NCBI GenBank assembly: GCA_013298745.1
Contig: JAAFIT010000006.1
Coordinates: 1-18,619 of the forward strand
Direction of reading: 5' to 3'
DNA length: 18,619 bases
From: Sphingomonadales bacterium
GTDB taxonomy: Bacteria; Pseudomonadota; Alphaproteobacteria; Sphingomonadales; Sphingomonadaceae
Part shown: positions 1,869-18,619 of the stretch, piece by piece
Layout of the letters: each line of letters starts with the position of its first letter
Position numbering within the stretch: position 1 is the stretch's first letter
Notes under the pieces: generated by a model
Databases searched by the model: none
What the model saw: only the letters and a program-made list of their open reading frames with translations
Told to the model about the DNA's origin: nothing
Translations under genes and position numbers: made by a program

Positions 1869-1893
1869 GTCGTCCGGCCTGTTGGATCGAAAG

Positions 1894-1927: not shown

Positions 1928-1931
1928 CACG

Positions 1932-2363: not shown

Positions 2364-2866
2364 GGTTCAATCCTCACCGTGTCACCAGGCTTCAACTGAT
2401 CGAGCCATGCGGACAGCTGCAACCGTTCGATCGCCACACAGCCTTCGGTCGGCCGCCGATCGGGCTGGGTGCAATGGAGGAAGATCGCGCTGCCCAGCGG
2501 CGGCTGCGGCGGGCTGTCGTTGTGGCCGAGCACCACGATGATGTCATAGGCATGGTCATCGCGCCACAACCGCTCGGCGCTGAAGCCATGGGGGTGCGAC
2601 ACCGGGCGGTTATAGGCAGGATCGGCAACACCATCCGACCAGCCATCATGGGGGCGCAGCCAGCGCCAGGGTAGGCGTGTGTGCGGCGCCGCCATGCGAT
2701 CCGGACGCAGCAGAGCGGCACGAACCGGCCAGATGCCCAGCGGCGTTGCACCATCGCCTTCACGCTTGTCGGCAGCGGCAATGGCCCCGCCGCGACCGAA
2801 GCTGGCTGCCACGGTCTCGCCAAACCCGGTCAGCGTGCCGGCGCCGACCGCGGCGACGATCGTCAC
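2360..2866 (-). CDS. L,D-transpeptidase (YkuD-fold) family protein
   Basis: This is a 168-residue YkuD/ErfK-type protein. The catalytic block is H131 in FLHC followed by PTEGCVAI with the nucleophile C143, replacing the classical SHGC motif. Earlier conserved blocks are [12 protein letters not shown] (33-44), a Trp/His-rich region ([13 protein letters not shown]) and VVLGHNDSP (111-119). Members of this COG3786-like group are annotated as L,D-transpeptidases that cross-link peptidoglycan through 3-3 bonds. No N-terminal signal peptide or anchor is visible. Either export uses another route, the true start differs, or the protein acts elsewhere. It overlaps ribA by 4 nt upstream and the lipoprotein gene by 4 nt downstream. 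Confidence 0.8.
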
Positions 2867-4730: not shown

Positions 4731-4772
4731 GGTTCGCGTCTAGACGAACGCATCGCGGGCGTCACCTGTGCG

Positions 4773-4801
4773 ATGACAGCAGGCTGTCATGCGCCTATAT
4801 G
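4773..4801 (+). promoter_or_regulatory. Sigma-70-like promoter with embedded palindromic operator before the copper chaperone gene
   Basis: ATGACA (4773-4778), a 17-nt spacer and TATATG (4796-4801) form a good housekeeping promoter, with a transcript start expected near 4808. An 8-bp-arm palindrome, ATGACAGC-AG-GCTGTCAT (4773-4790), covers the -35 box and most of the spacer. That is where a dimeric repressor would block polymerase. It may respond to copper, because the gene served encodes a PCu(A)C protein. The regulator is not in the window. Confidence 0.6.
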
Positions 4802-4829
4802 GCAACAATCGTTCAAGGAGTTTTCGCCG

Positions 4830-5309
4830 ATGTTGCTTCGCGCCGCAGCACTTGTCCTGTTGATTGCCGCACCGACGCTTGCAGCGCCGCCGCCGGTCAA
4901 GGAAGCATGGGACCAGACGTCGGCCGTAGCCAGCAATGCCTGGGTGCGTGCCGCGGCTGTGCCCGGTCGCCCGGCGGCAGGCTATCTGACCATCAAGGGT
5001 GGCGGCCAGCCTGACACGCTTGTCGAGGTCACCGCGCCCGGCGTGCGCGTCGAAATGCACAGCATGTCGATGGATGGCGGTGTCATGAAGATGGCCAAGC
5101 TCGACAGCGTGCCAGTCCCGGCCGGCGCAACTGTCGGTTTTGCACCTGGCGGTAACCATCTGATGATTTTCGGGATGTCCGGCGCGCCAAAGACGCTGCC
5201 ACTGACGCTCAAGTTTCGCAGCGGCGCTACGCTGACCACGACCGCCGACGTCCGTGCACCATCCGATGCCGCACCGGCCAATCCTCATGCGATGCATGGC
5301 CAGCATTGA
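4830..5309 (+). CDS. PCu(A)C-type periplasmic copper chaperone
   Basis: This 159-residue protein has a cleavable signal peptide (MLLRAAALVLLIAAPTLA, cleavage near residue 18-19) and one PCu(A)C domain. The copper-binding signature is exact: M76-H77, ten residues, M88, twenty-one residues, H110-L-M112. The C-terminal tail adds further potential ligands (HAMHGQH). By family knowledge these proteins carry Cu(I) in the periplasm and deliver it to the CuA/CuB centres of cytochrome oxidases. Start ATG 4830 follows AAGGAG with a 9-nt gap, whereas the longer in-frame extension would run into xthA. The gene's end overlaps the start of the next gene. Confidence 0.9.
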   Translation: MLLRAAALVLLIAAPTLAAPPPVKEAWDQTSAVASNAWVRAAAVPGRPAAGYLTIKGGGQPDTLVEVTAPGVRVEMHSMSMDGGVMKMAKLDSVPVPAGATVGFAPGGNHLMIFGMSGAPKTLPLTLKFRSGATLTTTADVRAPSDAAPANPHAMHGQH

Positions 5310-5757
5310 CACCGACCGGCCGCTGACTGCCGGCGAAATCGCCATCGCAGCCGCGGTTTTCGGCGATGCACTCGATCCGTCGCGTGCCACAGTGCGGCGC
5401 CGCAAGTTCTGGATGTTTCACCCCTGGTGGGTGACGATGGCACCCGATGGCCATATCTGGTGCCATCCCAATGGTTTCACCTGGAGCGCGGATTATGCCG
5501 CCGAGGCAATCAATGGCCGGGCGCATTTCGTCCATGAAATGGTGCATGTCTGGCAGCACCAGAGCGGCCGCAACCTGATCGTCGCGCGGCCGCCGCTGGC
5601 GCGCTACAATTACCGGCTGGAGCCCGGAAAGGCCTTTGCCGACTATGGCATCGAGCAACAGGCCTGTATCGTCGCCGACGCCTATCGCCTGCGTGACCGC
5701 GGCGACCATGCCGCGCTGCCGCCCTATGCAGCGATCCTGCCATTCGGGCACTGGTAA
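5296..5757 (+). CDS. HExxH-motif 'vgr-related' protein
   Basis: This protein of about 153 residues belongs to a small family often annotated 'vgr related' in sphingomonads. The conserved core reads RRKFWMFHPWWVTMAPDGHIWCHP, then FVHEMVHVWQHQSG with H80-E81-x-x-H84, then YNYRLEPG and YGIEQQACIV. The HExxH, with E120 as a possible third ligand, resembles a short zinc metalloprotease core, but catalysis is unproven and no signal peptide is seen. ATGs at 5287 and 5296 are both possible. Either overlaps the copper chaperone gene (by 23 or 14 nt), implying coupled translation. It converges on ptsP with only 6 bp between the stop codons. Confidence 0.75.
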   Translation: MASIDTDRPLTAGEIAIAAAVFGDALDPSRATVRRRKFWMFHPWWVTMAPDGHIWCHPNGFTWSADYAAEAINGRAHFVHEMVHVWQHQSGRNLIVARPPLARYNYRLEPGKAFADYGIEQQACIVADAYRLRDRGDHAALPPYAAILPFGHW

Positions 5758-5763
5758 GCCGCG

Positions 5764-8031
5764 TCAGGCGAGTTCGACACCCTGTTCGGCTGCGGCGCGC
5801 GACAGGGCCTTACGGACATTCACCCCCGGCGCATCAAGCCAACCGGACATGGCTTCGCGCAGCGACGCCAGATCGGCCGAACGGACCATCGCCTTGATCG
5901 GGCCGACGCCCGCCGGCGTGATCGACAGGCTCTCGACACCCAGTGACAGCAACGCCAGCGCTTCCAACGGTCGGCCGCCCATTTCCCCGCAAACCGTTAC
6001 CGGCACCCCCGCCGCGTCGGCAGCACGCACGATACGACGCAGCACGCGCAGAATGGCCGGGGACAGCCAATCATAACGATCGGCCAGCCGCGGGTTGGCG
6101 CGATCAGCGGCGAACAGGAACTGCGTCAGGTCGTTGGTGCCGACCGAGACGAAATCGGTGAGCGGAAGCAAGGTATCGAGCGTCTCGATCAGCGCCGGCA
6201 CCTCGATCATCGCGCCATAGCGAACGGTTTCCGGCAACGCATGGCCCTGCCGCGCCAACAATTTGCGCTGGCCCTCGACCAGCGCCTTGGCCTCGACAAA
6301 CTCCCAGGGCTCACTGACCATCGGGAACATGACATTGAGTGTTCGCCCGGCAGCGCCTTCAAGCAAGGCCCGCGCTTGCACCTTCATCAGCCCGGCGCGA
6401 CCGAGGGCGAGGCGCAAGGCCCGCCAACCCATCGCCGGGTTTTCTTCGCCCTCGCCATCGCCTTGCAGATAGGGGACCGCCTTGTCGCCGCCGATATCGA
6501 CGGTGCGGAACACCACGGGCCTGGCACCCGCAGCGTCGAGCACTGTGCGATACAGGGCCTGCTGCCGCTCGCGCCGCGGCAGGGTGGCCGATACCAGAAA
6601 CTGGAATTCGGTACGGAACAGGCCGATGCCATCGGCGCCGGTCAGATCGAGGGCCTGGGCATCGTCGGCGAGCCCCGCATTCATCTGTACCATGATGCGC
6701 CGACCATCACGGCTGATCGCCGGGAGATCCTTCACTGCCGCGAACTTTTCGGCCTGACGTGCCTTCACGACCCGCATCGCCTCGTAGGAGGCAATCATCG
6801 CGGCCTGCGGCCTGACCAACAGCGCGCCATTGCCGGCATCGACGATGAGTTCGTCGCCATCCGAGACCTGCGCGAACAGATCATGGACCCGGCCGAGCAC
6901 CGGCACCCCCATGGCGCGTGCAACGATGATGACATGCGCCGTCAGACTGCCTTCTTCGAGGACAACGCCCTTCAGATAGCGTTTGTCATACTCAAGCAGT
7001 TCGGCCGGCCCGAGATTGCGGGCGATCAGAATGGTATCGCCGCGCAACCCGGATTTGGCCGCGGTCCCCAATTGACCGGACACGATCCGGAGCAGGCGAT
7101 TGCTGAGATCATCAAGATCGGTCAGCCGCTCCCGCAAATAGGGATCGTCGATCGAGCGCATCCGCGCCCGGGTCCGCGCCTGCACCCGCTCGATCGCGGC
7201 TTCGGCGGTCAGGCCGGTATCGATCGCCTCGTTGATGCGCCGCGACCAGCCTTCGTCATAGGCGAACATCTTGTAGGTATCGAGAACCTCGTGATGATCG
7301 CCGCCGCCGGCAAATTCGGCCTGGCCCATCATCGTGTCGATCTGCTCGCGCATGCGCGTGAAGGCCGAATAGACGCGCAGCCGCTCACCCTCGATATCGT
7401 CCGACACGGTGTGTTCAACGATGACGCGCGGCTGGTGGAAGACGGCGGTGCCGCGCCCCAAACCGTCGACAAGCTTCAAGCCGGCGAGCCGCATCGGACC
7501 GCTGCTTGCCGCGCGTGCGCGCGCCGCCTGGGCGTCATCGACCAGCCCGGCGCCGTGGATGAGTTCCGACAGGACCATGGCGACAGTCTGCAGCGCCTCG
7601 ATCTCGACCTCGTCATATTCGCGCGGCTCGCGGTGCTGCACGCCGAGCACACCGATCGCCGCTTCGCGTCGCACGATCGGCACACCGGCAAAGCTGTGAT
7701 AATCATCCTCACCGGTTTCCGGGCGATACGCGAAGTCCGGATGCTCCTTGGCTTCAGCGAGATTCAAAGGCTCGCGGGTCGCAGCAATCGTACCGACAAG
7801 CCCCTGCCCCATGCTCAAGCGCGTCACATGCACTGCCGATTGCGCCAGGCCTTGGGTGGCAAACAGTTCGAGCATGCCATCGCGCAGGAGATAGATCGAC
7901 GCAACCTCGCTCGACAGCAGTTCGGAGACGATCCGCACCACCTGTCCCAGCTTGGCTTCAGCGCCGGTCCTGGCTGCCATCACCTCGTGAAGGCGACGCA
8001 GGATCTCTCGGGCGGCGCTGACAGCGGCCAT
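5764..8031 (-). CDS. ptsP: Phosphoenolpyruvate-protein phosphotransferase of the nitrogen PTS (EI-Ntr)
   Basis: This is a 755-residue EI-Ntr. An N-terminal GAF domain (about 15-165) senses a small molecule, by homology glutamine in related systems. The PTS enzyme I body follows: the phosphohistidine domain has H366 in GSLTAHVIIVARAMGVPV, and the PEP-binding barrel has GADGIGLFRTEF (465-476), GTNDLTQF (631-638) and CGEMGG with the catalytic C681. It passes phosphate from PEP to NPr and then EIIA-Ntr, controlling nitrogen, potassium and surface functions. It is the last gene of the lysC operon; its ATG shares one base with the upstream TGA (TGATG). An antisense open frame spans most of the gene and is a codon-bias shadow. 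Confidence 0.93.
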   Translation of the reverse strand: MAAVSAAREILRRLHEVMAARTGAEAKLGQVVRIVSELLSSEVASIYLLRDGMLELFATQGLAQSAVHVTRLSMGQGLVGTIAATREPLNLAEAKEHPDFAYRPETGEDDYHSFAGVPIVRREAAIGVLGVQHREPREYDEVEIEALQTVAMVLSELIHGAGLVDDAQAARARAASSGPMRLAGLKLVDGLGRGTAVFHQPRVIVEHTVSDDIEGERLRVYSAFTRMREQIDTMMGQAEFAGGGDHHEVLDTYKMFAYDEGWSRRINEAIDTGLTAEAAIERVQARTRARMRSIDDPYLRERLTDLDDLSNRLLRIVSGQLGTAAKSGLRGDTILIARNLGPAELLEYDKRYLKGVVLEEGSLTAHVIIVARAMGVPVLGRVHDLFAQVSDGDELIVDAGNGALLVRPQAAMIASYEAMRVVKARQAEKFAAVKDLPAISRDGRRIMVQMNAGLADDAQALDLTGADGIGLFRTEFQFLVSATLPRRERQQALYRTVLDAAGARPVVFRTVDIGGDKAVPYLQGDGEGEENPAMGWRALRLALGRAGLMKVQARALLEGAAGRTLNVMFPMVSEPWEFVEAKALVEGQRKLLARQGHALPETVRYGAMIEVPALIETLDTLLPLTDFVSVGTNDLTQFLFAADRANPRLADRYDWLSPAILRVLRRIVRAADAAGVPVTVCGEMGGRPLEALALLSLGVESLSITPAGVGPIKAMVRSADLASLREAMSGWLDAPGVNVRKALSRAAAEQGVELA

Positions 8032-9047
8032 CAGGCGGCCGATTCAAATGTGCGCGACGAAAGGGCGGCTTCGGCCTCGGCAACCAGTTCTGCAATAATG
8101 TCGGCGGCGCTCTGTTCCGTCGTCACCATGCCCACCGACTGGCCTGCCATGACGCTGCCGTTCTCGACATCGCCATCAACGACAGCGCGGCGCAAGGCGC
8201 CGGCCCAATAGTGCTCGATCGCCAATTGCCCGGCGGCCAGATCCATCTCGCCGCGATCAACGGCGGCGGCGACTTCACGCTGCTTGGCGGTAAAGGCTTC
8301 GGTTCCGGCGTTCTTCAAGGCGCGCACCGGAATCACCGGCAGACGCGGATCGATTTGCACGCTTGCCACCGCATCGCGCGCCGAGGCTCGGAAAAAAGCT
8401 TTCTTGAAATTGGGATGTGCAACGCTATCGGACGAGGCTGCGAATCGCGTGCCGAGCTGGACGCCGGACGCGCCCATTTCAAGCCAGGCGGCAATCGCCG
8501 CGCCGCGACCGATGCCACCGGCAACGAACACCGGCACGTCGGTGATGACTGGTAGAATTTCCTGCGCCAGCACGCCGAGCGACACCGGGCCGATATGGCC
8601 GCCGGCTTCGGAGCCTTCGATGACAATGGCATCGACACCCGAGCGCACCAGCTTCTTCGCGAGCGCTGCCGTGGGCGCAAAGCACATCAACTTGGCACCC
8701 GCCGCCTTGATCGCTTCAATCGCGGCGCCCGAGGGCAGGCCGCCGGCGAGGACAATATGGCTAACCTTGTGCTTGGCACAGACGGCAATCAGTTCCAGCA
8801 TCGCCGGGTGCAGGGTGATCAGGTTGACGCCGAACGGCTTGTCGGTCAGCGCCTTGGTCGCAGCGATCTCGGCATCGAGAAGTTCGGGTGTCATCGAGCC
8901 GCAGGCGATCACACCAAAGCCGCCGGCATTGGAAATGGCGCTGACGAGGTGGCGTTCGGACACCCAGGTCATCGCGCCGGCCATGATGGCATGGCGGGTC
9001 CCGAGGAAGTCGCGACCGCGCGCCGACAGTTGGTCAAGCCGGGTCAT
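8031..9047 (-). CDS. Nitronate monooxygenase / FMN-dependent oxidoreductase (2-nitropropane dioxygenase family)
   Basis: This 338-residue TIM-barrel flavoprotein has an N-terminal GTRHAIMAGAMTWVS block and AGGFGVIACG (41-50). The FMN-binding signature is EGSEAGGHIGP (144-154), with the phosphate-binding AGGIGRG (176-182) and GVQLGTRF (195-202). Members oxidise nitronates, or act as NAD(P)H:quinone reductases or FabK-like enoyl-ACP reductases; the exact substrate cannot be read from the sequence. It lies between lysC (4-nt overlap) and ptsP (1-nt overlap), so it is translated with both. It may protect against nitronates such as propionate 3-nitronate, but that role is inferred. Confidence 0.85.
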   Translation of the reverse strand: MTRLDQLSARGRDFLGTRHAIMAGAMTWVSERHLVSAISNAGGFGVIACGSMTPELLDAEIAATKALTDKPFGVNLITLHPAMLELIAVCAKHKVSHIVLAGGLPSGAAIEAIKAAGAKLMCFAPTAALAKKLVRSGVDAIVIEGSEAGGHIGPVSLGVLAQEILPVITDVPVFVAGGIGRGAAIAAWLEMGASGVQLGTRFAASSDSVAHPNFKKAFFRASARDAVASVQIDPRLPVIPVRALKNAGTEAFTAKQREVAAAVDRGEMDLAAGQLAIEHYWAGALRRAVVDGDVENGSVMAGQSVGMVTTEQSAADIIAELVAEAEAALSSRTFESAA

Positions 9048-10279
9048 GCGGCAACGCCGTCGGGCGCATCTAGGCCATAAGCGGTGTGCAGCACGCGCAC
9101 TGCCAGTTCGACATACTCCTCAGCGATCAGCACGCTGACCTTGATTTCAGAGGTAGTGATCGCCTGAATATTGATACCCCTATCGGCCAAGGCGCGGAAC
9201 ATCGTCACCGCGACCCCGGCATGACTCTTCATGCCGACACCGACGACCGAAACCTTGGCGACCGCCGCATCGGACATCACCTTGGCATAGCGAATCGTGT
9301 CGTGCGCCTTCTCAAGCACATCGAGCGACCGCGGCAACTGGGTGCGCGGCACGGTGAAGGTCACGTCGGTGGCACCCTCGCCCTTGGCAATATTCTGGAC
9401 GATCATGTCGACGTTGATATTGGCATCGGCCAAGGGGCCGAAGATCGCCGCGACAACCCCCGGCACGTCGGGGACGCCGACCAGCGTCACCTTGGCTTCG
9501 TTCTTGTCATAGGCGACACCGGCAATCAGTTCGCGTTCCATGTCTTCATCCTCGTCAACAACCATGGTGCCAGGCGCATCGGTAAAGCTCGATAGCACCT
9601 GAACCTTGACCTTTTCCTTCATCGCCAGCTCGACCGAGCGGGTTTGCAGCACCTTGGCACCAACCGACGCAAGTTCGAGCATTTCTTCATAGGTGATGCG
9701 TTCGAGCTTCCTCGCCCGCGGTACGATACGCGGATCGGTGGTGTAGACGCCATCGACATCGGTGTAGATGTCGCAGCGATCAGCCTTGAGCGCCGCTGCC
9801 AATGCCACGGCACTGGTATCCGAACCACCGCGTCCCAGCGTGGTGACACGATTGTCATCGGTCACGCCCTGAAAGCCCGGCACCACAGCGACTTCGCCCT
9901 TGGCCATCGCTGCCAGCACCGATTCGGTTTCAATGCCTTCAATGCGCGCGACGCTGTGCGCGTCCGACGAATGGATCGGCAACTGCCAGCCAAGCCAGGA
10001 CCGCGCCGGCACGCCAGCCGCCTGCAAGGCAATCGCCAGCAAGCCGGCCGTTACCTGTTCGCCAGCGGCCACGACGACATCATATTCACGCGGATCGGCC
10101 AGCGGCGACGCCTCGCGGCAAAAGCCGACCAGGCGATCAGTCTCGCCCGCCATGGCCGAAACGACCACCGCCACTTCGTTGCCGGCCGCGATCTCGCGTT
10201 TGACGCGCGCTGCGACCCCGCGAATGCGTTCGGTTCCGGCCATCGACGTGCCGCCGAATTTCATCACGATACGGGCCAT
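9044..10279 (-). CDS. lysC: Aspartate kinase
   Basis: This 411-residue aspartokinase catalyses the first step toward lysine, threonine, methionine and diaminopimelate. Visible motifs are MKFGGTSMAG (6-15), VVVSAMAGETD, the phosphate-binding GRGGSDTSAVALAAAL and DVDGVYTTDPRIVPRA. Two C-terminal ACT regulatory domains follow (IAGVAYDKNEAKVTLVGVPD... and VAKVSVVGVGMKS...), which mediate feedback control by lysine/threonine in this family. The ATG at 10277-10279 was chosen because the kinase fold begins there. The frame stays open for another 160 codons upstream, but that stretch overlaps divergent ubiG and has no homology. AGAGGAG precedes the ATG by about 12 nt. It heads the lysC-oxidoreductase-ptsP operon. 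Confidence 0.94.
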   Translation of the reverse strand: MARIVMKFGGTSMAGTERIRGVAARVKREIAAGNEVAVVVSAMAGETDRLVGFCREASPLADPREYDVVVAAGEQVTAGLLAIALQAAGVPARSWLGWQLPIHSSDAHSVARIEGIETESVLAAMAKGEVAVVPGFQGVTDDNRVTTLGRGGSDTSAVALAAALKADRCDIYTDVDGVYTTDPRIVPRARKLERITYEEMLELASVGAKVLQTRSVELAMKEKVKVQVLSSFTDAPGTMVVDEDEDMERELIAGVAYDKNEAKVTLVGVPDVPGVVAAIFGPLADANINVDMIVQNIAKGEGATDVTFTVPRTQLPRSLDVLEKAHDTIRYAKVMSDAAVAKVSVVGVGMKSHAGVAVTMFRALADRGINIQAITTSEIKVSVLIAEEYVELAVRVLHTAYGLDAPDGVAA

Positions 10280-10344
10280 TGCGGGGCAGCGCTCCTCTGC
10301 GAAACGGCCTGTGACAGCGAAATGCTTGGGGGCCGGTCCCGCGT

Positions 10345-10373
10345 CTGATAGGAATGACTCACCCCCTTGGCAA
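10345..10373 (-). promoter_or_regulatory. Candidate lysC operon promoter
   Basis: On the minus strand TTGCCA (10368-10373), a 17-nt spacer and TATCAG (10345-10350) resemble a sigma-70 promoter, with a leader of roughly 60 nt to lysC. The match is fair and rests on position and spacing. Confidence 0.4.
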
Positions 10374-10377
10374 GCAA

Positions 10378-10394
10378 GGTGGGCTTGTCCCACC
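10378..10394. repeat. Small hairpin in the lysC-ubiG intergenic region
   Basis: GGTGGG (10378-10383) and CCCACC (10389-10394) form a perfect 6-bp stem with a 5-nt loop, just upstream of the ubiG ribosome binding site. It could be an operator or an mRNA leader structure. The 127-bp divergent gap otherwise holds only the candidate lysC promoter. Confidence 0.3.
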
Positions 10395-10406
10395 GACAGG
10401 AATTCA

Positions 10407-11162
10407 ATGGCCAGCACCACGGCACCCGCGCCACCCGCCCCCAGTATCGCCGCCAATGAAGCCGAATTCTTCGGCAAGCTGGCGGAAGATTGGTGGAATC
10501 CCACCGGCAGCTCGGCGATGCTGCATCGTATCACGCCGGTGCGCAGCGCACTGATCCGCGACGCCGCAGTGGCGCATTTCGGGCTTTCGGCAAAGACCCG
10601 CCGCCCGCTTGCCGGACTGACAGCGCTTGATATCGGCTGCGGCGCCGGTCTGATGACCGAACCGCTGGCGCGTATGGGCGCCACTGCGACCGGCATCGAC
10701 GCGGCCCCCGAAAACATTGCCGCCGCTGCCGCCCATGCCACAGCTGGCGGATTGGACATCGCCTATCACGCGACCTCGGTCGAAGCATTGGCGGCCACCG
10801 GCGCGCGCTTTGACATCATCACCTGCCTCGAAGTCGTCGAGCATGTCGCGGACCGCGACAGCTTCTTTGCGGCGCTCGCAGCGCTGCTGGCGCCGGGCGG
10901 GCTCGCCATCCTGTCCACCCCCAATCGCACCGCCGCATCCTGGGCCGTACTGATCGCCGGCGCCGAGATGATCACTCGGCAGATCCCGCGCGGTGCACAT
11001 GACTGGAACCGCTTCATGACACCGCCCGAGCTTTCGGAAAGCTTGGTCAACGCCGGCCTTGCCGTGATGGCGACACATGGCCTCGGCTGGTCCCCCGCCA
11101 AGGGGTTCCAGATCGGCGGCGACACCGGCATCAACTACTTCCTCACCGCGAGGCACGCATGA
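10407..11162 (+). CDS. ubiG: Ubiquinone biosynthesis O-methyltransferase UbiG
   Basis: This 251-residue class I SAM-dependent methyltransferase performs both O-methylations of ubiquinone synthesis. Signatures are EAEFFGKLAEDWWNPTG (18-34, the UbiG-specific WWNP block), LHRITPVR (39-46), the SAM-binding ALDIGCGAGLMTEPLA (73-88) and ITCLEVVEHV. The C-terminal block RGAHDWNRFMTPPEL...G(L/F)QIGGDTGINYF is also UbiG-like. ATG 10407 follows AGGAA and begins a short Ala/Pro-rich, likely disordered tail before the conserved core. The gene is divergent from lysC and overlaps the next gene by 4 nt. Confidence 0.93.
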   Translation: MASTTAPAPPAPSIAANEAEFFGKLAEDWWNPTGSSAMLHRITPVRSALIRDAAVAHFGLSAKTRRPLAGLTALDIGCGAGLMTEPLARMGATATGIDAAPENIAAAAAHATAGGLDIAYHATSVEALAATGARFDIITCLEVVEHVADRDSFFAALAALLAPGGLAILSTPNRTAASWAVLIAGAEMITRQIPRGAHDWNRFMTPPELSESLVNAGLAVMATHGLGWSPAKGFQIGGDTGINYFLTARHA

Positions 11163-11791
11163 AGCTTTACCATTGCGTCGGTGCGCGCAGCCTGCGCGCC
11201 TTGTGGACGGTTGAGGAACGCGGGCTCGATTGCGAACTGGTCGTCATGCCATTCCCGCCGCGCAAGAAGGTGACAGGCTGGTTATCCGCCAACCCGCTGG
11301 GCACCATTCCGCTGTTCGTCGAACGCGACACGCGGATGACCGAAAGCGTCGCGATCGCGCAATATCTCGCCACCGGCTCGTCGCTCGCCGTCACCCCCGA
11401 TGAAGCCGATTACGGCTGGTATCTCGATTTCCTCCACCACGCCGATGCGACGCTGACCTTTCCGCAAACCGTTTACATGCGGTATCGGCTGTTCGAACCG
11501 CACCGCGGCCTCGAAACCGCCGGCGACCTTTACGCCGACTGGTATGTCGCCCGCCTTGCCAAGGTCGCAGCGCGCCTCGATAATCGCGATTTCCTGTGTG
11601 CCGGGCGCTTCACCGCTGCCGATATCGCCATTGCCTATTCGCTGTATCTGTCGACCCGGATCGGCCTGTCGGACCGGCTCCCACCCCGGCTGGCCGAATG
11701 GCTGGCCACGATGACGGCGCGGCCCGGCTTTCAGGCGGCGCTGGCACGCGAAGCAGCAGCTCCTGTCGTGAGTGATCTGACGGCGATGTAG
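11159..11791 (+). CDS. Glutathione S-transferase family protein
   Basis: This 210-residue cytosolic GST-fold protein has an N-terminal thioredoxin-like domain (1-75) that begins MKLYHCVGARSLRALWTVEE. It includes SANPLGTIPLF with the cis-proline P51 and E62-S63, the glutathione gamma-glutamyl contact of the fold. The all-helical C-terminal domain contains FTAADIAIAYSLYLS, the usual N-capping/hydrophobic staple region. Serine 11 (or Y4) could be the catalytic residue. The substrate is unknown. The 4-nt overlap with ubiG indicates co-translation; a link to quinone or xenobiotic metabolism is plausible but unproven. Confidence 0.85.
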   Translation: MKLYHCVGARSLRALWTVEERGLDCELVVMPFPPRKKVTGWLSANPLGTIPLFVERDTRMTESVAIAQYLATGSSLAVTPDEADYGWYLDFLHHADATLTFPQTVYMRYRLFEPHRGLETAGDLYADWYVARLAKVAARLDNRDFLCAGRFTAADIAIAYSLYLSTRIGLSDRLPPRLAEWLATMTARPGFQAALAREAAAPVVSDLTAM

Positions 11792-11892
11792 AAACCTCCG
11801 GCGGCTGAAGCCTCTCGGGCCGCCCGAATTGTCTAGCTTCCTCATTTGTCGAATTGTGCCAGACTGGGGGCAAGACGAGGGGAGTTCGACCG

Positions 11893-12408
11893 ATGACCAC
11901 CGCCCTGTTGCGCGGCATCCACCACAGTGCCTATCGCTGCCGTGACGCCGAGGAGACACGTGCCTTTTACGAGGATGTGCTGGGGTTGCCGCTCGCCGCC
12001 GCGCTGGAGGAAGAGCGCGAGCCGGGATCCGGGCGCAAGAACCCCTTTGTCCATATCTTTTTCAAACTAGGCGACGGCAATTACATCGCCTTTTTCGATG
12101 CGCCTGCATCGGCAGCACCGAACAGCTTCGATCTCGTCCATGGTTTTGATCGCCATGTCGCCTTTGAAGCCGCAGACGAGGCGGCGCTGAAAGCCTGGCA
12201 GGACAAGCTCAATGCGACGGGCGTGCCGTGCTTCGGGCCGATCGACCACGGCTTTGTCAAATCGGTCTATTTCAGCGACCCCAACGGCCTGCCGCTGGAA
12301 ATCACCACGCGGGTACCGACGCACGACGCCATCATGGCCGAGGAGGCCAGTCACGCCCGCGCCATCATCGCCGGCTGGACCGTCAAGAAGCAGGCAGCAA
12401 GCCGTTGA
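11893..12408 (+). CDS. VOC (glyoxalase / extradiol dioxygenase fold) family protein
   Basis: This 171-residue protein has two beta-alpha-beta-beta-beta modules. The first starts GIHHSAYRCRDAEETRAFYEDVLGLPL (H10/H11). The second includes DRHVAFEA (H88) and ends VYFSDPNGLPLEITTR (E136). The histidine/glutamate set is that expected for a metal centre. The paralogous group includes glyoxalases, fosfomycin-resistance proteins and ring-cleavage dioxygenases; the reaction cannot be named. ATG 11893 follows GAGGGGAG, a strong ribosome binding site. The 101-bp gap after the GST gene shows no clear terminator, so it may have its own promoter or be read through. Its stop overlaps the TTG start of the hydrolase gene. 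Confidence 0.8.
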   Translation: MTTALLRGIHHSAYRCRDAEETRAFYEDVLGLPLAAALEEEREPGSGRKNPFVHIFFKLGDGNYIAFFDAPASAAPNSFDLVHGFDRHVAFEAADEAALKAWQDKLNATGVPCFGPIDHGFVKSVYFSDPNGLPLEITTRVPTHDAIMAEEASHARAIIAGWTVKKQAASR

Positions 12409-13529
12409 GCGGCTTCGTTCGCATCCCGCTGGTCATCGGCTTTCAGGAGCCTGTCGGGGTGCGCGACAGCTATGGCGGCATTGATGGGCTGGTGGTGTTG
12501 CAGGCGCATCATCTGAAGCCCGAGACAGCTTCGGACACCATCGTCATCTTCATGCACCCGATGGGCATCATGCATTATCTGCCGCTCCCCGGCGCCCTGG
12601 CCGCGACGGGTGTGCATGTGCTGACGGCGGTGTCGCGTTACCCGAACAACGACAATGCCTTGATCATGGAGAAGGTCGTCATCGATCTGGGAAAATGGGT
12701 CGAGCACTGCCGCAACAAGCTCGGCTATGCCCGCGTCATTCTTGGCGGCTGGTCGGGCGGCGGCAGCCTCGCGCTATTCTACCAGGCTGAAGCCAACGAC
12801 CCGCAAGTAACGGCAACGCCAGCAGGCGACCCGCCCGATCTGACCCGCACGACCCTGCCGCGGGCCGATGGCGTGATGCTGCTGGCAGCGCATGTCAGCA
12901 GGGCGCATACGCTCACAGAATGGCTCGACCCATCGATCGTCGACGAAGCCGATCCGACGCGGCGCGATCCGGCGTGGAACCTCTACGATCCCGCTTGCGC
13001 GCAGCCGCCCTATTCGACCGACTTCCTCGCCGAGTTCCGTGCTCGCCAGATCGCACGGTCGGACCGCATTACGGAATGGACCGAAACAACGCTGATAGCG
13101 TTGCGCCATCGCGAAGGTCCTCACGCCGAGCGCGCCTTTATCGTCCATGGCACGATGGCTGATCCACGCTGGCTCGATCCGGCTGTCGATGCGAATGATC
13201 GAGTGCCGGGCCGCTGCTATCTTGGCGACCCGCGGTTGATCAACGATTCCCCCGGCGGGCTGGGACGGTTCTCGACGCTCAGATCATGGCTGAGCCAGTG
13301 GAGCCGCAAATCCAAAGCCGATGGCATTGCCTGTGGGCCACGGATTGCCGTGCCGGTGTTGGTCATCGGCAACAGCGCCGATGATGCCTGCACGCCGAGC
13401 CACACCGAGCGGCTGTATGATTGCGTGGCGCAAACCGATCGCCGCCTGCATGTCGTCAAGGGCGCGACCCATTATTACGCTGGCCAACCCGACAAGCTTG
13501 CCGAAGCGGCGGGCATCGTCACCACATGA
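12405..13529 (+). CDS. Alpha/beta hydrolase, C-terminus shortened by a tandem duplication
   Basis: This 374-residue alpha/beta-hydrolase fold protein begins at TTG 12405, within a TTGA overlap with the VOC gene stop. The first residues, SGFVRIPLVIGFQEPVGVRDSYGG, follow directly and no ATG is available. The nucleophile elbow is GWSGGG with S117. The acid is in NSADDACTPSHTE (D326/D327) and the histidine is H356 in GATHYYAG, so the triad survives. The 127-bp tandem duplication at 13402-13655 places a TGA after GIVTT. Judging from the downstream copies, the ancestral protein continued WLVQHGFHA to 383 residues, so nine residues are lost. The substrate is unknown; pairing with a VOC protein hints at ester or ring-cleavage chemistry. 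Confidence 0.8.
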   Translation: MSGFVRIPLVIGFQEPVGVRDSYGGIDGLVVLQAHHLKPETASDTIVIFMHPMGIMHYLPLPGALAATGVHVLTAVSRYPNNDNALIMEKVVIDLGKWVEHCRNKLGYARVILGGWSGGGSLALFYQAEANDPQVTATPAGDPPDLTRTTLPRADGVMLLAAHVSRAHTLTEWLDPSIVDEADPTRRDPAWNLYDPACAQPPYSTDFLAEFRARQIARSDRITEWTETTLIALRHREGPHAERAFIVHGTMADPRWLDPAVDANDRVPGRCYLGDPRLINDSPGGLGRFSTLRSWLSQWSRKSKADGIACGPRIAVPVLVIGNSADDACTPSHTERLYDCVAQTDRRLHVVKGATHYYAGQPDKLAEAAGIVTT

Positions 13530-13655
13530 CACCGAGCGGCTGTATGATTGCGTGGCGCAAACCGATCGCCGCCTGCATGTCGTCAAGGGCGCGACCCATT
13601 ATTACGCTGGCCAACCCGACAAGCTTGCCGAAGCGGCGGGCATCGTCACCACATG
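13402..13655 (+). repeat. Exact 127-bp tandem duplication of the hydrolase 3' region
   Basis: Unit 1 (13402-13528) and unit 2 (13529-13655) look identical base for base. The unit starts ACACCGAGCGG and ends CACCACATG. Because 127 is not a multiple of three, the second unit is read out of frame, and the junction creates the in-frame TGA that ends the hydrolase. A third copy of the unit lies at 15106-15232 inside the larger duplicated block. Confidence 0.92.
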
Positions 13656-13683
13656 GCTGGTGCAGCACGGATTTCACGCATGA
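13531..13683 (+). pseudogene. Detached C-terminal fragment of the alpha/beta hydrolase (copy 2)
   Basis: Fifty residues from TERLYDCVAQ to WLVQHGFHA, with their natural TGA stop, correspond to the hydrolase C-terminus including its catalytic histidine. They are separated from the main gene by the duplication-induced stop and a +1 frame change. The fragment has no start codon or ribosome binding site of its own and is unlikely to be translated. Confidence 0.8.
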
Positions 13684-13686
13684 AAA

Positions 13687-13710
13687 AGGCCCGGGGTTGC
13701 CCCCGGGCCT
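13687..13710. terminator. Intrinsic terminator between hydrolase tail and PEP-CTERM gene A
   Basis: AGGCCCGGGG (13687-13696), a TTGC loop and CCCCGGGCCT (13701-13710) form a 10-bp perfect stem. On the minus strand it is followed by a run of Ts, so it is strongest for the PEP-CTERM transcript. On the plus strand a weaker TGATCATTTT follows. Confidence 0.85.
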
Positions 13711-13733
13711 GATCATTTTACCGGAGCAAAGGC

Positions 13734-14396
13734 TCAGGCGGCGACGGCGGTGCGCTTGCGGCGGCGCGAAGCGACGCCGACCAGACCGAAGCCGGCCACG
13801 AGCATCGCCCAGGTCGATGCTTCCGGGATCATGCTGACGCTGACGCTGTCGATGACCGGACCAAAGGCGCCGTTGTTGCCGCTCGCACGGAACTGAAGGT
13901 CCTGATACGGCTTGCTGGCAACAAAGGTGTATGTTTCAGTGACATACGCCATGTTGTTGGGAGCGTTGGTACCGGGAATGAAGGTGTAGAAATCCTGTTC
14001 GGCGAAACCGCCGGACACCGACACCAGGTAGTTGACCTTCGTCGGACCCTGTGCGGTGTTAGCCGGGTTGGCCGACACGTTGAACTTCAGGACATAGGCC
14101 TTGCCCTGCGTGAAGCCAAACACGCGCTGCGAAACGCCACCGTTCTTCGAGGTCAGTTCGATGCTGCGCGAACCGTTGGCGGCATCCCAGACCGTGTTGT
14201 CGACATAGCTGACACCGGCGCCGAGCACCCGCCAACCGGTGATCGTCGTGGTGTCACCAGCCGAAAGCGCGGTCGAACCGGCCGGGCTCGTGCCGACTTC
14301 AAAGCTCGGGTTGTTGAGCAGGTTGATCGCGGCCTGCGCCGAGGTTGCGGCCGAGACCGAAGCGACGGCGGCGAGAACGAGAACTGACTTGCGCAT
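13734..14396 (-). CDS. Choice-of-anchor C family PEP-CTERM (PEPxxWA) surface protein, copy A
   Basis: This 220-residue secreted protein has a signal peptide at residues 1-22 (cleavage after SAQA), then a beta-rich domain. The domain begins INLLNNPSFEVG and contains ITGWRVLGAGVSYVDNTVWDAANGSRSIEL, the DUF642/choice-of-anchor C pattern. The C-terminal sorting signal is IPEASTWAML (190-199), the hydrophobic VAGFGLVGV and the basic RRRKR (211-215). The third residue of the classical PEP motif is Ala here. Such proteins are recognised by an exosortase, cleaved and anchored or released together with exopolysaccharide; no exosortase gene is in the window. The ATG follows GAAGGATCAATCAG. The protein is identical to copy B. 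Confidence 0.9.
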   Translation of the reverse strand: MRKSVLVLAAVASVSAATSAQAAINLLNNPSFEVGTSPAGSTALSAGDTTTITGWRVLGAGVSYVDNTVWDAANGSRSIELTSKNGGVSQRVFGFTQGKAYVLKFNVSANPANTAQGPTKVNYLVSVSGGFAEQDFYTFIPGTNAPNNMAYVTETYTFVASKPYQDLQFRASGNNGAFGPVIDSVSVSMIPEASTWAMLVAGFGLVGVASRRRKRTAVAA

Positions 14397-14439
14397 CTGA
14401 TTGATCCTTCGTGAAAGCGATTACTCTTCGCTTCCAGCC

Positions 14440-14457
14440 ATGCAGGAATCATGCCAA
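14440..14457 (-). promoter_or_regulatory. Sigma-54 (-24/-12) promoter for PEP-CTERM gene A
   Basis: On the minus strand TTGGCATG-N4-CTGCAT places GG (14454-14455) exactly 10 nt from GC (14442-14443), the spacing required for RpoN. The consensus is TGGCAC-N5-TTGC; here the C of CAC is T and the TT is CT. Transcription would start near 14430, giving a leader of about 34 nt. Sigma-54 control through a PrsK/PrsR-type system is known for PEP-CTERM genes in other bacteria. Confidence 0.6.
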
Positions 14458-14460
14458 CTC

Positions 14461-14490
14461 AAGGAATCCCCGAAATCCGGGAAATTCCTT
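14461..14490. repeat. Imperfect inverted repeat just upstream of the sigma-54 promoter (copy A)
   Basis: AAGGAAT and ATTCCTT arms, with inner CCCG/CGGG complementarity, give a 30-bp near-palindrome ending 4 bp from the -24 element. It could be a regulator site or a DNA structure. The same element is present in copy B at 16038-16067. Confidence 0.4.
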
Positions 14491-14506
14491 CCGAGACGCA
14501 ATGCCG

Positions 14507-14528
14507 TTTGTAAACCTGGCTTTACAAA
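14507..14528. promoter_or_regulatory. Perfect palindrome TTTGTAAA-N6-TTTACAAA (candidate enhancer site, copy A)
   Basis: The 8-bp arms are perfectly complementary around a 6-nt centre. The site is centred about 88 bp upstream of the predicted sigma-54 transcript start, where enhancer-binding activators normally bind. Weaker GTAAA half-sites follow at about 14531-14549. The outer edge of the palindrome is the last base shared by the two repeat copies. Confidence 0.55.
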
Positions 14529-15103
14529 GAGAGTAAACAAAAGGTAAATGCCGCTAGTTCCGTCAACGCCCTGCCCAACATCAATCAGTGCATTTGCAGC
14601 TGCAGGAGAGTCCTGACCAGCTTAAGCCGAATCGGCACATGCGGCCGAATCTATATCGAGGCCGGCATTTGAGTTATATCTATCGGCATATTAAGTGTTA
14701 TCGCTCATATGGCGAACTCTTCAGTCAAAATAAAAATCTAAGTAACAATCTGAACATGAAAAAATATCGATTTGATCGAATATTTCTATAACAAAACTGC
14801 CCTTCACTATGAAGTAATCAGCACGACGAATCTGCTATTGCTGCGGTTCACCTCGGCAGAGTTGGCGGCCCATGACCTGCACCGCCGATCACCGGCATAG
14901 CTGATCTAACGCGGGGCAATCCGGCCGGGATCCGCTACAAGGCGGACGGTCCGGAACCGCCCCTTCGGCCGAAGTCTGCATGTGCCTGGTCACCGCCAGG
15001 TCGGACGCCATGGCAGCTTGCAAAAAATGGTGAGCGCTGGCGCGCCTGTTCTCGCGAAAGTTGGCCCGCTGAAGGAGGCCTCTATCGTCTATGGCAAGCT
15101 TAG
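14529..15103. other. Unique spacer between the two repeat copies
   Basis: The first part (14529 to about 14720) is diverged but alignable to the region upstream of PEP-CTERM gene B; for example CCGAATCGG at 14627 matches 16203. It is followed by an A/T-rich stretch (about 14690-14810) with no recognisable gene. From about 14820 the sequence turns GC-rich and has short open frames on both strands (one minus frame ends at 14889), but none shows a domain I recognise. It may be the end of a gene from another place, or intergenic debris. Confidence 0.6.
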
Positions 15104-15107
15104 TGAC

Positions 15108-15260
15108 ACCGAGCGGCTGTATGATTGCGTGGCGCAAACCGATCGCCGCCTGCATGTCGTCAAGGGCGCGACCCATTATTACGCTGGCCAACCCGACAAG
15201 CTTGCCGAAGCGGCGGGCATCGTCACCACATGGCTGGTGCAGCACGGATTTCACGCATGA
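15108..15260 (+). pseudogene. Orphan C-terminal fragment of the alpha/beta hydrolase (copy 3)
   Basis: The same 50 residues as copy 2 (TERLYDC... to HGFHA, then TGA) occur 1.6 kb away from the hydrolase gene, with no gene body in front. An in-frame ATG at 14982 would fuse it to unrelated sequence, which I regard as accidental. Confidence 0.8.
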
Positions 15261-15263
15261 AAA

Positions 15264-15287
15264 AGGCCCGGGGTTGCCCCCGGGCCT
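15264..15287. terminator. Intrinsic terminator downstream of PEP-CTERM gene B
   Basis: This is the copy of the 10-bp stem/TTGC loop terminator, with the T-run on the minus strand. It ends the transcript of PEP-CTERM gene B. Confidence 0.85.
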
Positions 15288-15310
15288 GATCATTTTACCG
15301 GAGCAAAGGC

Positions 15311-15973
15311 TCAGGCGGCGACGGCGGTGCGCTTGCGGCGGCGCGAAGCGACGCCGACCAGACCGAAGCCGGCCACGAGCATCGCCCAGGTCGATGCTTC
15401 CGGGATCATGCTGACGCTGACGCTGTCGATGACCGGACCAAAGGCGCCGTTGTTGCCGCTCGCACGGAACTGAAGGTCCTGATACGGCTTGCTGGCAACA
15501 AAGGTGTATGTTTCAGTGACATACGCCATGTTGTTGGGAGCGTTGGTACCGGGAATGAAGGTGTAGAAATCCTGTTCGGCGAAACCGCCGGACACCGACA
15601 CCAGGTAGTTGACCTTCGTCGGACCCTGTGCGGTGTTAGCCGGGTTGGCCGACACGTTGAACTTCAGGACATAGGCCTTGCCCTGCGTGAAGCCAAACAC
15701 GCGCTGCGAAACGCCACCGTTCTTCGAGGTCAGTTCGATGCTGCGCGAACCGTTGGCGGCATCCCAGACCGTGTTGTCGACATAGCTGACACCGGCGCCG
15801 AGCACCCGCCAACCGGTGATCGTCGTGGTGTCACCAGCCGAAAGCGCGGTCGAACCGGCCGGGCTCGTGCCGACTTCAAAGCTCGGGTTGTTGAGCAGGT
15901 TGATCGCGGCCTGCGCCGAGGTTGCGGCCGAGACCGAAGCGACGGCGGCGAGAACGAGAACTGACTTGCGCAT
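15311..15973 (-). CDS. Choice-of-anchor C family PEP-CTERM (PEPxxWA) surface protein, copy B
   Basis: This 220-residue protein is identical to the product of 13734-14396. It has the signal peptide (1-22), DUF642-like beta domain, IPEASTWAML sorting motif, hydrophobic segment and RRRKR tail. The leader, ribosome binding site, sigma-54 element and palindrome are also identical. The sequence further upstream is diverged, so the two copies could be regulated differently if distal sites matter. Complete identity, including silent positions, implies very recent duplication or gene conversion. Expected location is the cell surface or extracellular matrix after exosortase processing. Confidence 0.9.
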   Translation of the reverse strand: MRKSVLVLAAVASVSAATSAQAAINLLNNPSFEVGTSPAGSTALSAGDTTTITGWRVLGAGVSYVDNTVWDAANGSRSIELTSKNGGVSQRVFGFTQGKAYVLKFNVSANPANTAQGPTKVNYLVSVSGGFAEQDFYTFIPGTNAPNNMAYVTETYTFVASKPYQDLQFRASGNNGAFGPVIDSVSVSMIPEASTWAMLVAGFGLVGVASRRRKRTAVAA

Positions 15974-16016
15974 CTGATTGATCCTTCGTGAAAGCGATTA
16001 CTCTTCGCTTCCAGCC

Positions 16017-16034
16017 ATGCAGGAATCATGCCAA
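16017..16034 (-). promoter_or_regulatory. Sigma-54 (-24/-12) promoter for PEP-CTERM gene B
   Basis: This is the same TTGGCATG-N4-CTGCAT element as in copy A, 44 bp upstream of the gene start, with GG-N10-GC spacing. Confidence 0.6.
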
Positions 16035-16037
16035 CTC

Positions 16038-16067
16038 AAGGAATCCCCGAAATCCGGGAAATTCCTT
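16038..16067. repeat. Imperfect inverted repeat upstream of the sigma-54 promoter (copy B)
   Basis: This is identical to the AAGGAAT/ATTCCTT near-palindrome in copy A. Confidence 0.4.
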
Positions 16068-16083
16068 CCGAGACGCAATGCCG

Positions 16084-16105
16084 TTTGTAAACCTGGCTTT
16101 ACAAA
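16084..16105. promoter_or_regulatory. Perfect palindrome TTTGTAAA-N6-TTTACAAA (candidate enhancer site, copy B)
   Basis: This is identical to the copy A palindrome and at the same distance from the gene. Beyond it, GTTAAC and CTAAC half-sites sit where GTAAAC and GGTAAA occur in copy A, suggesting a second, weaker site kept in both. Confidence 0.55.
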
Positions 16106-16671
16106 TTTAGTTAACGAAAAGCTAACTGCGCAAATTCGCCTGTTTACCGCACCGCACCAATCAATTGCGCCTGCAGTATCAAAGCGTCTCGTCCTGCTGA
16201 ACCCGAATCGGTCCGCGCGCCCGAATCTAAAACGAGTCTCCAATTTTTCACATTTGCGTTGGTATATTATGTCTAATCGTCAGTGTTCTGAAACCATAAT
16301 TCAACAGTAAAATTATATTGCGCCTTAGCGCACCAGTTGAAACTGGGATTGGAAAATATTTCTGATTTCACTCGATGGCCAACTATGGATGAAGCCGCGA
16401 AACGACTTGATGGTTGCTGCAGCTCGCCCGGAATTGGGCGTCAGAGCATTGGTCGACCAATCGATAATCGTTGGGACAGCTCTGGATATGGCGCGATCCA
16501 GCTTGTCCTGATCCGCCCTTTTCCGCCGGTTGGTGCGTCTGCTGGATCACCCGGGCATCGCAACGCCGCGTCCTCGGACGTACAGCCTGGCATCGTGCGG
16601 CGCAGCGGGCTATTCGCCAGTTGCGACACGGCCGAAATCGACCGATATCCCTTTGCTTTCGCCGGTGTCGT
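16106..16671. other. Intergenic region between PEP-CTERM gene B and the LytTR regulator gene
   Basis: 16106 to about 16300 is the diverged counterpart of the upstream region of copy A (shared blocks such as CCGAATCGG and CGAATCTA-A-CGAG). From about 16345 to 16671 one plus-strand frame reads as a coherent peptide (LDGQLWMKPRNDLMVAAARP..., then after one in-frame TGA at 16509-16511, ALFRRLVRLLDHPGIATPRP...). It has no start codon context and no recognised family, so it may be the remnant of a decayed gene. No functional gene can be supported. Confidence 0.5.
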
Positions 16672-17472
16672 TCAAAGAAACCGGGCCACGACCTCGCGAT
16701 AGCTCCGGCTCACCTTGACCTGGGTATTTGAGCCCAACACCAGGAAACATTCGCCATTGGTGTGTGGCTTGACGCTTTTGATATTGTCGAGATTGACGAT
16801 GGTCGACCGATGGATGCGCTGGAACTTTCGCGGATCGAGCCGGCGCTCGAGGTCCTTCATGGTTTCCCTGAGAATCAACGTCTGATCGGCGGTGTAGATG
16901 CACATGTAATCGCCGGCCGCATCGATACGCTCGATATCGGCGACGTCGACACGGAAGATCTGGCCGCGGTCCTTGATGTTCAGCACCTTTTCATAGCGGC
17001 TGGCCGCCGGCGCGTCGGCTTCGGTGGCAAGGTCATCGGGCATCGATTCCGGCGCCACTTCAGTCAGAATCTCTTTCAAGCGCTCGCTGTCACCGCAGCT
17101 GCGCTTCTCGGCGAGCCGCTGGCGGACCCGTTCGATCGTCAAGGCCAGACGCTCTTCATCGACCGGCTTCATCAGATAATCGACTGCGTGCGCGTCAAAC
17201 GCCTTGAGCGCGTGCTCGCCATAGGCGGTGACGAAGACAAACAGCGGCGGCTCGATATCGGCAAGGCCGGACACCACCGAAAAGCCGTCAAAGCCCGGCA
17301 TCTGGATATCGAGAAACACCAGATCGGGTTTCAGGGTCTTGATGGCGCGGATGGCTTCACGACCATTGGCGCAGCGCTCGACGATCTCGACATCGTCAAA
17401 GGCCTGCAACCGCAATTCGAGGCCCTGAATGGCGAGGGGTTCGTCGTCGACGAGGATGGTGGAAATGGGCAT
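16672..17472 (-). CDS. LytR/AlgR-type (LytTR) response regulator
   Basis: This 266-residue protein has an N-terminal receiver domain (1-120) with acidic pocket D9-D10, phospho-acceptor D55 in VFLDIQMPG, switch threonine T82 and lysine K102 in MKPVD. A linker of about 45 residues follows, then a C-terminal LytTR DNA-binding domain (about 165-266) with RVDVADIERIDAAGDYMCIYT and FQRIHRSTIVNLDNIKSVKPH. It should bind direct repeats upstream of target genes when phosphorylated by the kinase encoded 14 bp upstream. The ribosome binding site AGGAA overlaps the kinase TAG stop, so translation is coupled. Targets are not evident in the window. Confidence 0.92.
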   Translation of the reverse strand: MPISTILVDDEPLAIQGLELRLQAFDDVEIVERCANGREAIRAIKTLKPDLVFLDIQMPGFDGFSVVSGLADIEPPLFVFVTAYGEHALKAFDAHAVDYLMKPVDEERLALTIERVRQRLAEKRSCGDSERLKEILTEVAPESMPDDLATEADAPAASRYEKVLNIKDRGQIFRVDVADIERIDAAGDYMCIYTADQTLILRETMKDLERRLDPRKFQRIHRSTIVNLDNIKSVKPHTNGECFLVLGSNTQVKVSRSYREVVARFL

Positions 17473-17486
17473 GACGCAATCTGTTC

Positions 17487-18619
17487 CTAATGGGCCTGAA
17501 CCAGGGACGGTCCAGCACTTTGTGCCCCCATTCGGGTCTCGTTGCGGCCATCGCCCCCGATGGCCGCATGTGGTGCGTCGGTCTGATATGGAATGTCGAT
17601 CAGCACGATCAAGCCTTGCGGGCTATTTTCCGCCAATTCGAAGCGATGATCCTCACCATAGGCCTGCGCCAGCCGCTCGCGGATATTGGCCAGGCCCACC
17701 TGTGTGCTCGCCGGCGCCGGGTCGCTCGAACTGACGGTACCAGCCAGTCCCGGCCCGGTGTCGGCGACCGTCAGCACCAGCCGATCGGCCATGCGGCGTG
17801 CATCGACGAGGATATCGGCGCCATCCTCGCTGGGCGTCACCGCATATTTGATGGCATTTTCGACGATGGGTTGCAGCAGCAACGATGGCAACCGCGCCTC
17901 CATCACATCGGGCGCGATATCGAAGCGGGTGCGCAGCCGGCTTTCAAATCGGGTGCGCTCGATATCGAGGTAGAGCTTCAGCGCCTCGGCTTCCTGCGCC
18001 ACCGTCGCCAGCCCCTCGCGCTCGCCAACCAGGCTGTAGCGCAGGAACGAGGCGAGGCGGGACAGCATGGCGTTGGCGCGATCGGTCTGTTTCAACAGCA
18101 CCAGAGTCGAGATCGAATTCAATGTATTGAACAGGAAATGCGGGTTGAGCTGGTAGCGCAGCATCTCGAGCTGCGCCGAGTTCGCCTGCGCCGCGACATT
18201 GATCATCCGTTCGGACTGTTCCGACAGAAGCAGATAGTAATTGATGCCGTAATAGAGCCCGGTCCAGGCCGCGAGCACCGAGAAATCGAGCAGGATGGCG
18301 CCGAGAAACTCGATCCCCTGCGGCTGCCACCCCGGCTGATAGAAGGTCGCGTGCGCCCAGACCTCGAGCACCGAGAACAGCGCCGATGACGCGCCGAGGA
18401 TGATCAGTGTCAGCGTCCAGACATAGACCGGCCGCATGACGATGATCCGCCGGTACGCCGCCGCCATCAGCAGGGTGAGCGAGAAGCCGGTCGCCGTAAC
18501 GATGACCGCCGGCAGGATGAAGGCCACGCCCATCGAATTGGCGAGACCCGACAGCGCCCGCAGCAGCAGATAGGCGAACCAGCCGCCGCCCTGGAGGATC
18601 CAGAAGGCACGGTTCTTGT
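17487..18619 (-). CDS. LytS-family membrane sensor histidine kinase (5' end outside window)
   Basis: The reading frame stays open to the window edge (376 complete codons visible), and the residues before the first ATG (18531-18533) are part of a hydrophobic segment (FAYLLLRAL). The true start is therefore beyond the window. The N-terminal half holds about four transmembrane helices (FILPAVIVTATGFSLTLLMA, LTLIILGASSALFSVL, ILLDFSVLAAWTGLYYG). The His_kinase domain has LNPHFLFNTLNS with phospho-accepting His at 18138-18140. The ATPase part has VENAIKYAV, VADTGPGL and GLANIRERL. No separate sensor domain is visible, so sensing may occur in the membrane. It partners the LytTR regulator gene downstream. 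Confidence 0.9.
   Translation of the reverse strand, partial: KNRAFWILQGGGWFAYLLLRALSGLANSMGVAFILPAVIVTATGFSLTLLMAAAYRRIIVMRPVYVWTLTLIILGASSALFSVLEVWAHATFYQPGWQPQGIEFLGAILLDFSVLAAWTGLYYGINYYLLLSEQSERMINVAAQANSAQLEMLRYQLNPHFLFNTLNSISTLVLLKQTDRANAMLSRLASFLRYSLVGEREGLATVAQEAEALKLYLDIERTRFESRLRTRFDIAPDVMEARLPSLLLQPIVENAIKYAVTPSEDGADILVDARRMADRLVLTVADTGPGLAGTVSSSDPAPASTQVGLANIRERLAQAYGEDHRFELAENSPQGLIVLIDIPYQTDAPHAAIGGDGRNETRMGAQSAGPSLVQAH

Follow-up and report, generated by a model that had tools for sequence, protein, structure and literature searches.

Here, we present an analysis of the repeats in an 18,619-nucleotide stretch of DNA from a Sphingomonadales bacterium (assembly GCA_013298745.1, contig JAAFIT010000006.1, positions 1 to 18,619 of the forward strand). 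This stretch, hereafter the window, is an entire contig (C482) of a 525-contig bin that is 78.8% complete with 5.3% contamination. From left to right, the window encodes a glyoxalase-like protein, an alpha/beta hydrolase, a PEP-CTERM/DUF642 protein on the opposite strand, a LytTR regulator, and a histidine kinase. The 3' end of the hydrolase gene and the complete PEP-CTERM gene lie within a 1000-bp block, here referred to as R, which is printed twice in the contig; its first 127 bp are printed a third time. The joint explanation that accounts best for these repeats, and that we consider probable, is that the assembler left a seam at the third copy and that the remainder goes back to an old tandem duplication in which block R was homogenised.

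The three copies of the 127-bp segment (13402-13528, 13529-13655, and 15106-15232) are 100% identical over exactly 127 bp, and all of them begin at the left edge of R. A preliminary description of this DNA, made from the sequence without database searches, had already pointed out these copies and their common left edge, and our repeat comparison reproduced both without a single difference. The same description reported a 1002-bp block. While 13527-14528 and 15104-16105 are indeed 100% identical, the leading TG (13527-13528) is the final dinucleotide of the extra 127-bp copy; its match to 15104-15105 is probably a coincidence with a chance of 1 in 16. Thus, R proper, as set by the hydrolase copy, is 1000 bp long. 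Its first printing (13529-14528) holds the hydrolase 3' end, a hairpin terminator, PEP-CTERM gene A, and the 5' region of gene A, and exact repeat comparison gives the second printing at 15106-16105. Besides these repeats, the window contains no exact direct repeat of at least 20 bp. Taken as printed sequence, the repeats are far beyond chance; the presence of all of them in a cell is a separate question.

The alpha/beta hydrolase gene (12405-13526, forward strand; PF12146 in Pfam) as printed encodes 374 residues and ends with the stop codon TGA at 13527-13529, which would be a product of the seam. Because the ten best database hydrolases have 381 to 385 residues, the frame that ends at 13528|13529 is short. 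When the two hydrolase pieces were searched separately, both matched the single gene of relatives. The break in the hydrolase frame is, therefore, probably a break on paper only. PEP-CTERM gene A (13734-14396, reverse strand) encodes a protein of 220 amino acids with a DUF642 domain (PF04862) and a PEP-CTERM motif (PF07589), as detected with Pfam. Based on open reading frames and repeat comparison, PEP-CTERM gene B (15311-15973, reverse strand) is identical to gene A.

We suggest that the extra 127-bp copy at 13402-13528 most probably represents a k = 127 overlap that was left unmerged between two assembly pieces, with the seam at 13528|13529. A k of 127 is a usual top k-mer of SPAdes and metaSPAdes. 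In a de Bruijn graph with k = 127, different contigs should share an exact 127-mer only where paths meet, and the meeting pieces overlap by k. We compared 126 whole contigs of the 525 in the bin (1,077,932 bases; the seven contigs consisting only of N and the partial contigs were excluded). Among these contigs, there was no exact match of at least 127 bp between different contigs; rather, the longest matches measured 126, 125, 125, and 125 bp, and every one of them ran to the end of one of the two contigs. After these came matches of 113, 104, and 100 bp. A graph with k = 127 would leave terminal matches of 125 to 126 bp, and the upper limit of the matches between contigs, 126 bp, thus agrees with the length of the extra copy. 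At 4 of the 15 joins marked by N gaps in the same contigs, the flanks repeat each other, which suggests that overlaps can remain unmerged at joins of this assembly. The sequences flanking 10-N gaps repeat each other in contigs C501, C509, C9, and C13, and these joins may hide unmerged overlaps. In the literature, passages of PMC5923482 describe "127 bp artificial overlaps" of SPAdes contigs, and passages of PMC10914622 describe end sequences of length maxK that are common to metaSPAdes and MEGAHIT contigs as well as the use of metaSPAdes k lists ending in 127.

According to this model, the assembler would have used k = 127, and the first 127 bases of R would be the graph node where paths meet. 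This node would be the end of the path carrying the hydrolase and the start of the path that follows; if both paths were joined end to end with the shared 127 bases left untrimmed, the node would be printed twice. Such a join would generate the "third copy", cut the hydrolase frame, and create the TGA stop codon at the seam. Because the second R starts with the same node, its copy of the 127-bp segment would have the same left edge as the other two. Altogether, we are highly confident that the shared breakpoint, as far as it concerns the 127-bp copy, is an assembly artefact.

The two copies of R are separated by a spacer of 577 bp (14529-15105), in which we distinguish the parts X1 (14529-14871) and X2 (14872-15105). 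X1 is a decayed homologue of ~16106-16458, i.e., of ~353 bp of the region upstream of gene B that adjoins the LytTR gene (region Y, 16106-16671). The two are 65% identical over 312 aligned bases, in register from the edge of R, with the closest similarity within the initial ~130 bp. The part of X1 used in the comparison with Y (14529-14860) gave a score of 100 against a shuffle mean of 24.6, and this score was reached by none of 500 dinucleotide shuffles. X2 is a decayed, frame-broken hydrolase homologue on the forward strand, of which 14886-15096 aligns to 12934-13152 with 68% identity over 205 aligned bases; here, the score of 98 (14861-15105 against the hydrolase) compares with a shuffle mean of 31.1 and was reached by 0 of 500 shuffles. 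The crossed controls failed as expected, the score being reached by 44 of 500 shuffles for X2 against Y and by 294 of 500 for X1 against the hydrolase. The best junction of the two homologies lies near 14871 (with near ties at 14852-14876) and pairs ~16458 with ~12920. X2 has no counterpart of ~13156-13401, a part that is missing directly to the left of the second R.

Elsewhere, little resembles the spacer. It had no match at E ≤ 0.001 in its own genome outside the window and no match among plasmids; in 198 other genomes of the family, it gave seven low-scoring matches of 22 to 42 bp, and in 23 other genomes of the genus only short, weak matches (E up to 1). Pfam gave no match in two frames covering the right part of the spacer. 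Foreign or mobile DNA was considered as its source and rejected, first because of the lack of plasmid and Pfam matches and then because the spacer turned out to consist of decayed copies of the flanks. The idea that X1 represents the upstream region of relatives' PEP-CTERM genes was also dropped, since the similarity was no better than that of shuffled sequences in four relatives (G009, G010, G022, and G002).

Thus, the two parts of the spacer are homologous to the two outer flanks and are arranged as in a tandem copy, and the homologies of X1 to Y and of X2 to the hydrolase, together with the junction of ~16458 with ~12920, look as the scar of a tandem duplication of ~1.84 kb would. The preliminary description had rightly named misassembly as a possibility to be excluded but had missed this origin of the spacer. 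We suggest that an old duplication took in the sequence from ~12920 in the hydrolase gene, across the PEP-CTERM gene, and up to ~16458 in the right flank, that the copy outside R then decayed to 65-68% identity with its hydrolase part broken, and that one copy of R was recently overwritten by the other through gene conversion or unequal exchange, which we judge to be the simplest course of events. The homologies of the spacer to the flanks are seen directly in the alignments; the conversion of R is what we infer. The order R-X1-X2-R would also be expected if a circle with R, X1, and X2 from the locus of a diverged relative had integrated by a single crossover in R to give R-X-R. However, this would require a donor with an identical R but with flanks that are 32-35% different, and X has no close match in the 23 other genus or the 198 other family genomes; accordingly, we consider this origin extremely improbable.

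The Jukes-Cantor distances of the spacer halves are 0.46 and 0.41, values that are probably too low, as local alignment selects the better parts. For comparison, the distances at 4-fold sites of the hydrolase are 0.50-0.91 for nine relatives. Set against each other, these distances argue that the duplication is old, although it is unseen in the relatives examined. Selection alone would not be expected to preserve complete identity between R copies of that age across 1000 bp that also comprise the terminator and non-coding sequence. Either one copy was recently overwritten or one R edge was used twice by the assembler. The identity of 100% over 1000 bp stands against 65-68% in the flanks and 44-46% amino acid identity to the proteins of three relatives, and the X1-Y alignment is in register from the edge of R, as it would be where a conversion tract ends. 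Based on these observations, we think it likely that a real old tandem duplication with a homogenised core lies beneath the seam.

This duplication also bears on the explanation favoured in the preliminary description, namely, linked duplications in the cell by template switching or by break-induced copying restarted at one position. The left edge common to three copies speaks for such events, as does the failure to recognise a mobile element within the spacer (Pfam in two right-part frames; plasmid search). However, they are not needed, because the shared edge follows from a k = 127 graph, and they would leave the coincidence of the 127-bp length with the inferred assembly k. Moreover, the larger duplication is old, as judged from the decayed spacer, and a fresh event at the same edge would thus be a coincidence. 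The base to the left of 15106 is G and that to the left of 13402 is C; because they differ, there is no microhomology at this position. Microhomology is not obligatory at template-switch or break-induced junctions. Altogether, we regard linked duplications as very unlikely. The lack of differences between the 1-kb copies, also noted in the preliminary description, is weak evidence, since an assembler that prints one graph edge two times necessarily yields identical copies.

Several points weigh against a seam combined with an old, homogenised duplication. The seam is unproven, and k = 127 is deduced from the contigs rather than documented. There are 15 N gaps (14 of them of 10 N) at other recognisable joins but none at 13528|13529, and a second exact 127-bp tandem copy was not found among the 126 of 525 contigs, arguing that such an error would be rare here. 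With respect to the duplication, the distal part of X1 alone (14662-14860) gave a borderline result against Y, with a score reached by 1 of 500 shuffles. At 15105|15106, where the second R begins, the register with the hydrolase is lost and 246 bp are missing; rather than a deletion, this could be another artificial join. Finally, the assembler alone could produce the identity of both R copies. Of the two steps, the seam, for which there is strong indirect evidence, is better supported than the old duplication.

If both steps are left to the assembler, everything would be assembly: three paths (hydrolase, R-X, and R-Y) that meet at the first k-mer of R would have been strung together. These paths would come from co-existing strains or copies, R would have been printed twice, and the missing 246 bp would reflect the end of the R-X path. 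Stretches interrupted by mismatches are common to the contig pairs C19/C512, C498/C515, C14/C515, and C20/C300, and the right end of the window (18519-18619) overlaps the start of contig C15 with 97% identity over 101 bp. Judged from these sequences, co-existing variants are evident within the bin. It also fits this explanation that the X2|R junction is the only out-of-register edge besides the presumed seam and that it begins at the node of the seam. On the other hand, there is no run of N at 15105|15106, unlike at the 15 gaps elsewhere; X1 continues from R in register with Y, and R-X1 and R-Y are both natural neighbour pairs; and a strain difference alone leaves it unexplained why X2, a hydrolase remnant, follows X1. 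We therefore consider an origin of all repeats in the assembly to be unlikely, though clearly less so than linked duplications or an integrated circle, and favour a seam on top of an old duplication. An extension of C482 after assembly was also considered, because its length seemed out of sequence next to those of adjacent contigs, and was rejected; the recurrence of long contigs at every 11th place reflects the string sorting of contig numbers.

To place the duplication in context, we compared the same locus in relatives using one set of 11 loci and a second set of the best 27 of 80 loci fetched with the hydrolase as query, which come partly from the same genomes. In the first set, 10 of the 11 loci hold the hydrolase, of which three have one PEP-CTERM gene before LytTR and seven have none; at the 11th locus, there is no hydrolase within the fetched stretch. 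At the locus of G002 (L059), a PEP-CTERM gene lies beside LytTR with no hydrolase within the 8 kb fetched. Among the best 27 of 80, one PEP-CTERM gene lies between the hydrolase and LytTR in 4 of the 27 named loci, and LytTR is matched in 16. Two PEP-CTERM genes at this place were found neither in any of the 11 loci nor in any of the best 27 of 80, and no locus among these 27 has two hydrolase matches. Sandarakinorhabdus species are among the named relatives that share this gene order. The closest of the listed database relatives of the hydrolase (P0049, ENA source, longest contig 60.7 kb) is 92% identical and contributed no locus. These comparisons agree with the single-copy ancestral order that had been reconstructed by removing the repeat from the window, and we regard the hydrolase, at most one PEP-CTERM gene, and the LytTR/histidine kinase pair as the likely ancestral arrangement. 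Among the papers listed in literature searches on PEP-CTERM and gene conversion, none was recognisably on this locus.

The right edge of R coincides with the right end of a palindrome with 8-bp arms (14507-14528 and, in the second copy, 16084-16105), which has a TGTAA-N8-TTACA core at 14509 and is located ~130 bp upstream of the PEP-CTERM start. This core pattern occurs at only these two places in the 1.08 Mb of own contigs, and it lies upstream of the gene in three of the five relatives that have a PEP-CTERM gene at this locus. Based on these two observations, we predict that the palindrome is probably an operator. It also fits the pattern TGT-N12-ACA, which we take to be that of PpsR/CrtJ. 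Between the converging hydrolase and PEP-CTERM genes, there is a strong, G+C-rich hairpin of 10 pairs (13687-13710 and again 15264-15287). It is preceded by a run of A and followed by a run of T and is terminator-like on both strands; it could serve as the terminator for both converging genes.

The PEP-CTERM protein shares 44-46% amino acid identity with its counterparts at this locus in three relatives and 41% with that in a fourth, and its best database relative is 71% identical. Judged from these values, the gene evolves fast. It is conceivable that gene conversion with a sharp limit at the operator palindrome maintains this fast-evolving gene for a surface protein as an identical tandem pair, while the rest of the old duplication decayed to 65-68% identity; however, we put this idea forward only tentatively, and it may well not hold. 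To the right of Y, and based on open reading frames and Pfam, the reverse strand encodes the LytTR response regulator (16672-17472) and the histidine kinase (17487-18533); most relatives of the genus likewise have this pair as the neighbours on the right.

More generally, our findings illustrate that an overlap of k-mer length left in a metagenome contig can mimic striking linked rearrangements and break a conserved gene on paper. A simple test for this is to set the length of a repeat beside the upper limit of the exact matches that contigs of its bin share with each other. If the duplication is true, the locus would be a minor example of a PEP-CTERM gene pair that was homogenised locally. 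If, in addition, conversion ends at the palindrome as tentatively proposed above, the locus would document, in an uncultured Sandarakinorhabdus relative, where conversion tracts stop in nature.

Both an assembly overlap and a homogenised tandem duplication are of already known kinds. Duplications by template switching or break-induced copying resemble the locus in having head-to-tail copies without a transposase, but they leave the shared edge and the exact k length unexplained, and the spacer here indicates an old event. The k-mer end overlaps of SPAdes and metaSPAdes share with the locus an exact 127-bp direct repeat that begins at a repeat boundary where paths meet; the cases described in the cited passages concern contig ends, whereas the repeat here lies inside a contig at a join free of N. 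As for tandem duplication with gene conversion, i.e., concerted evolution, the locus differs in that its identity may be a product of assembly; in common with such systems, it has identical paralogues that have diverged from the proteins of relatives and that are bordered by decayed flanks.

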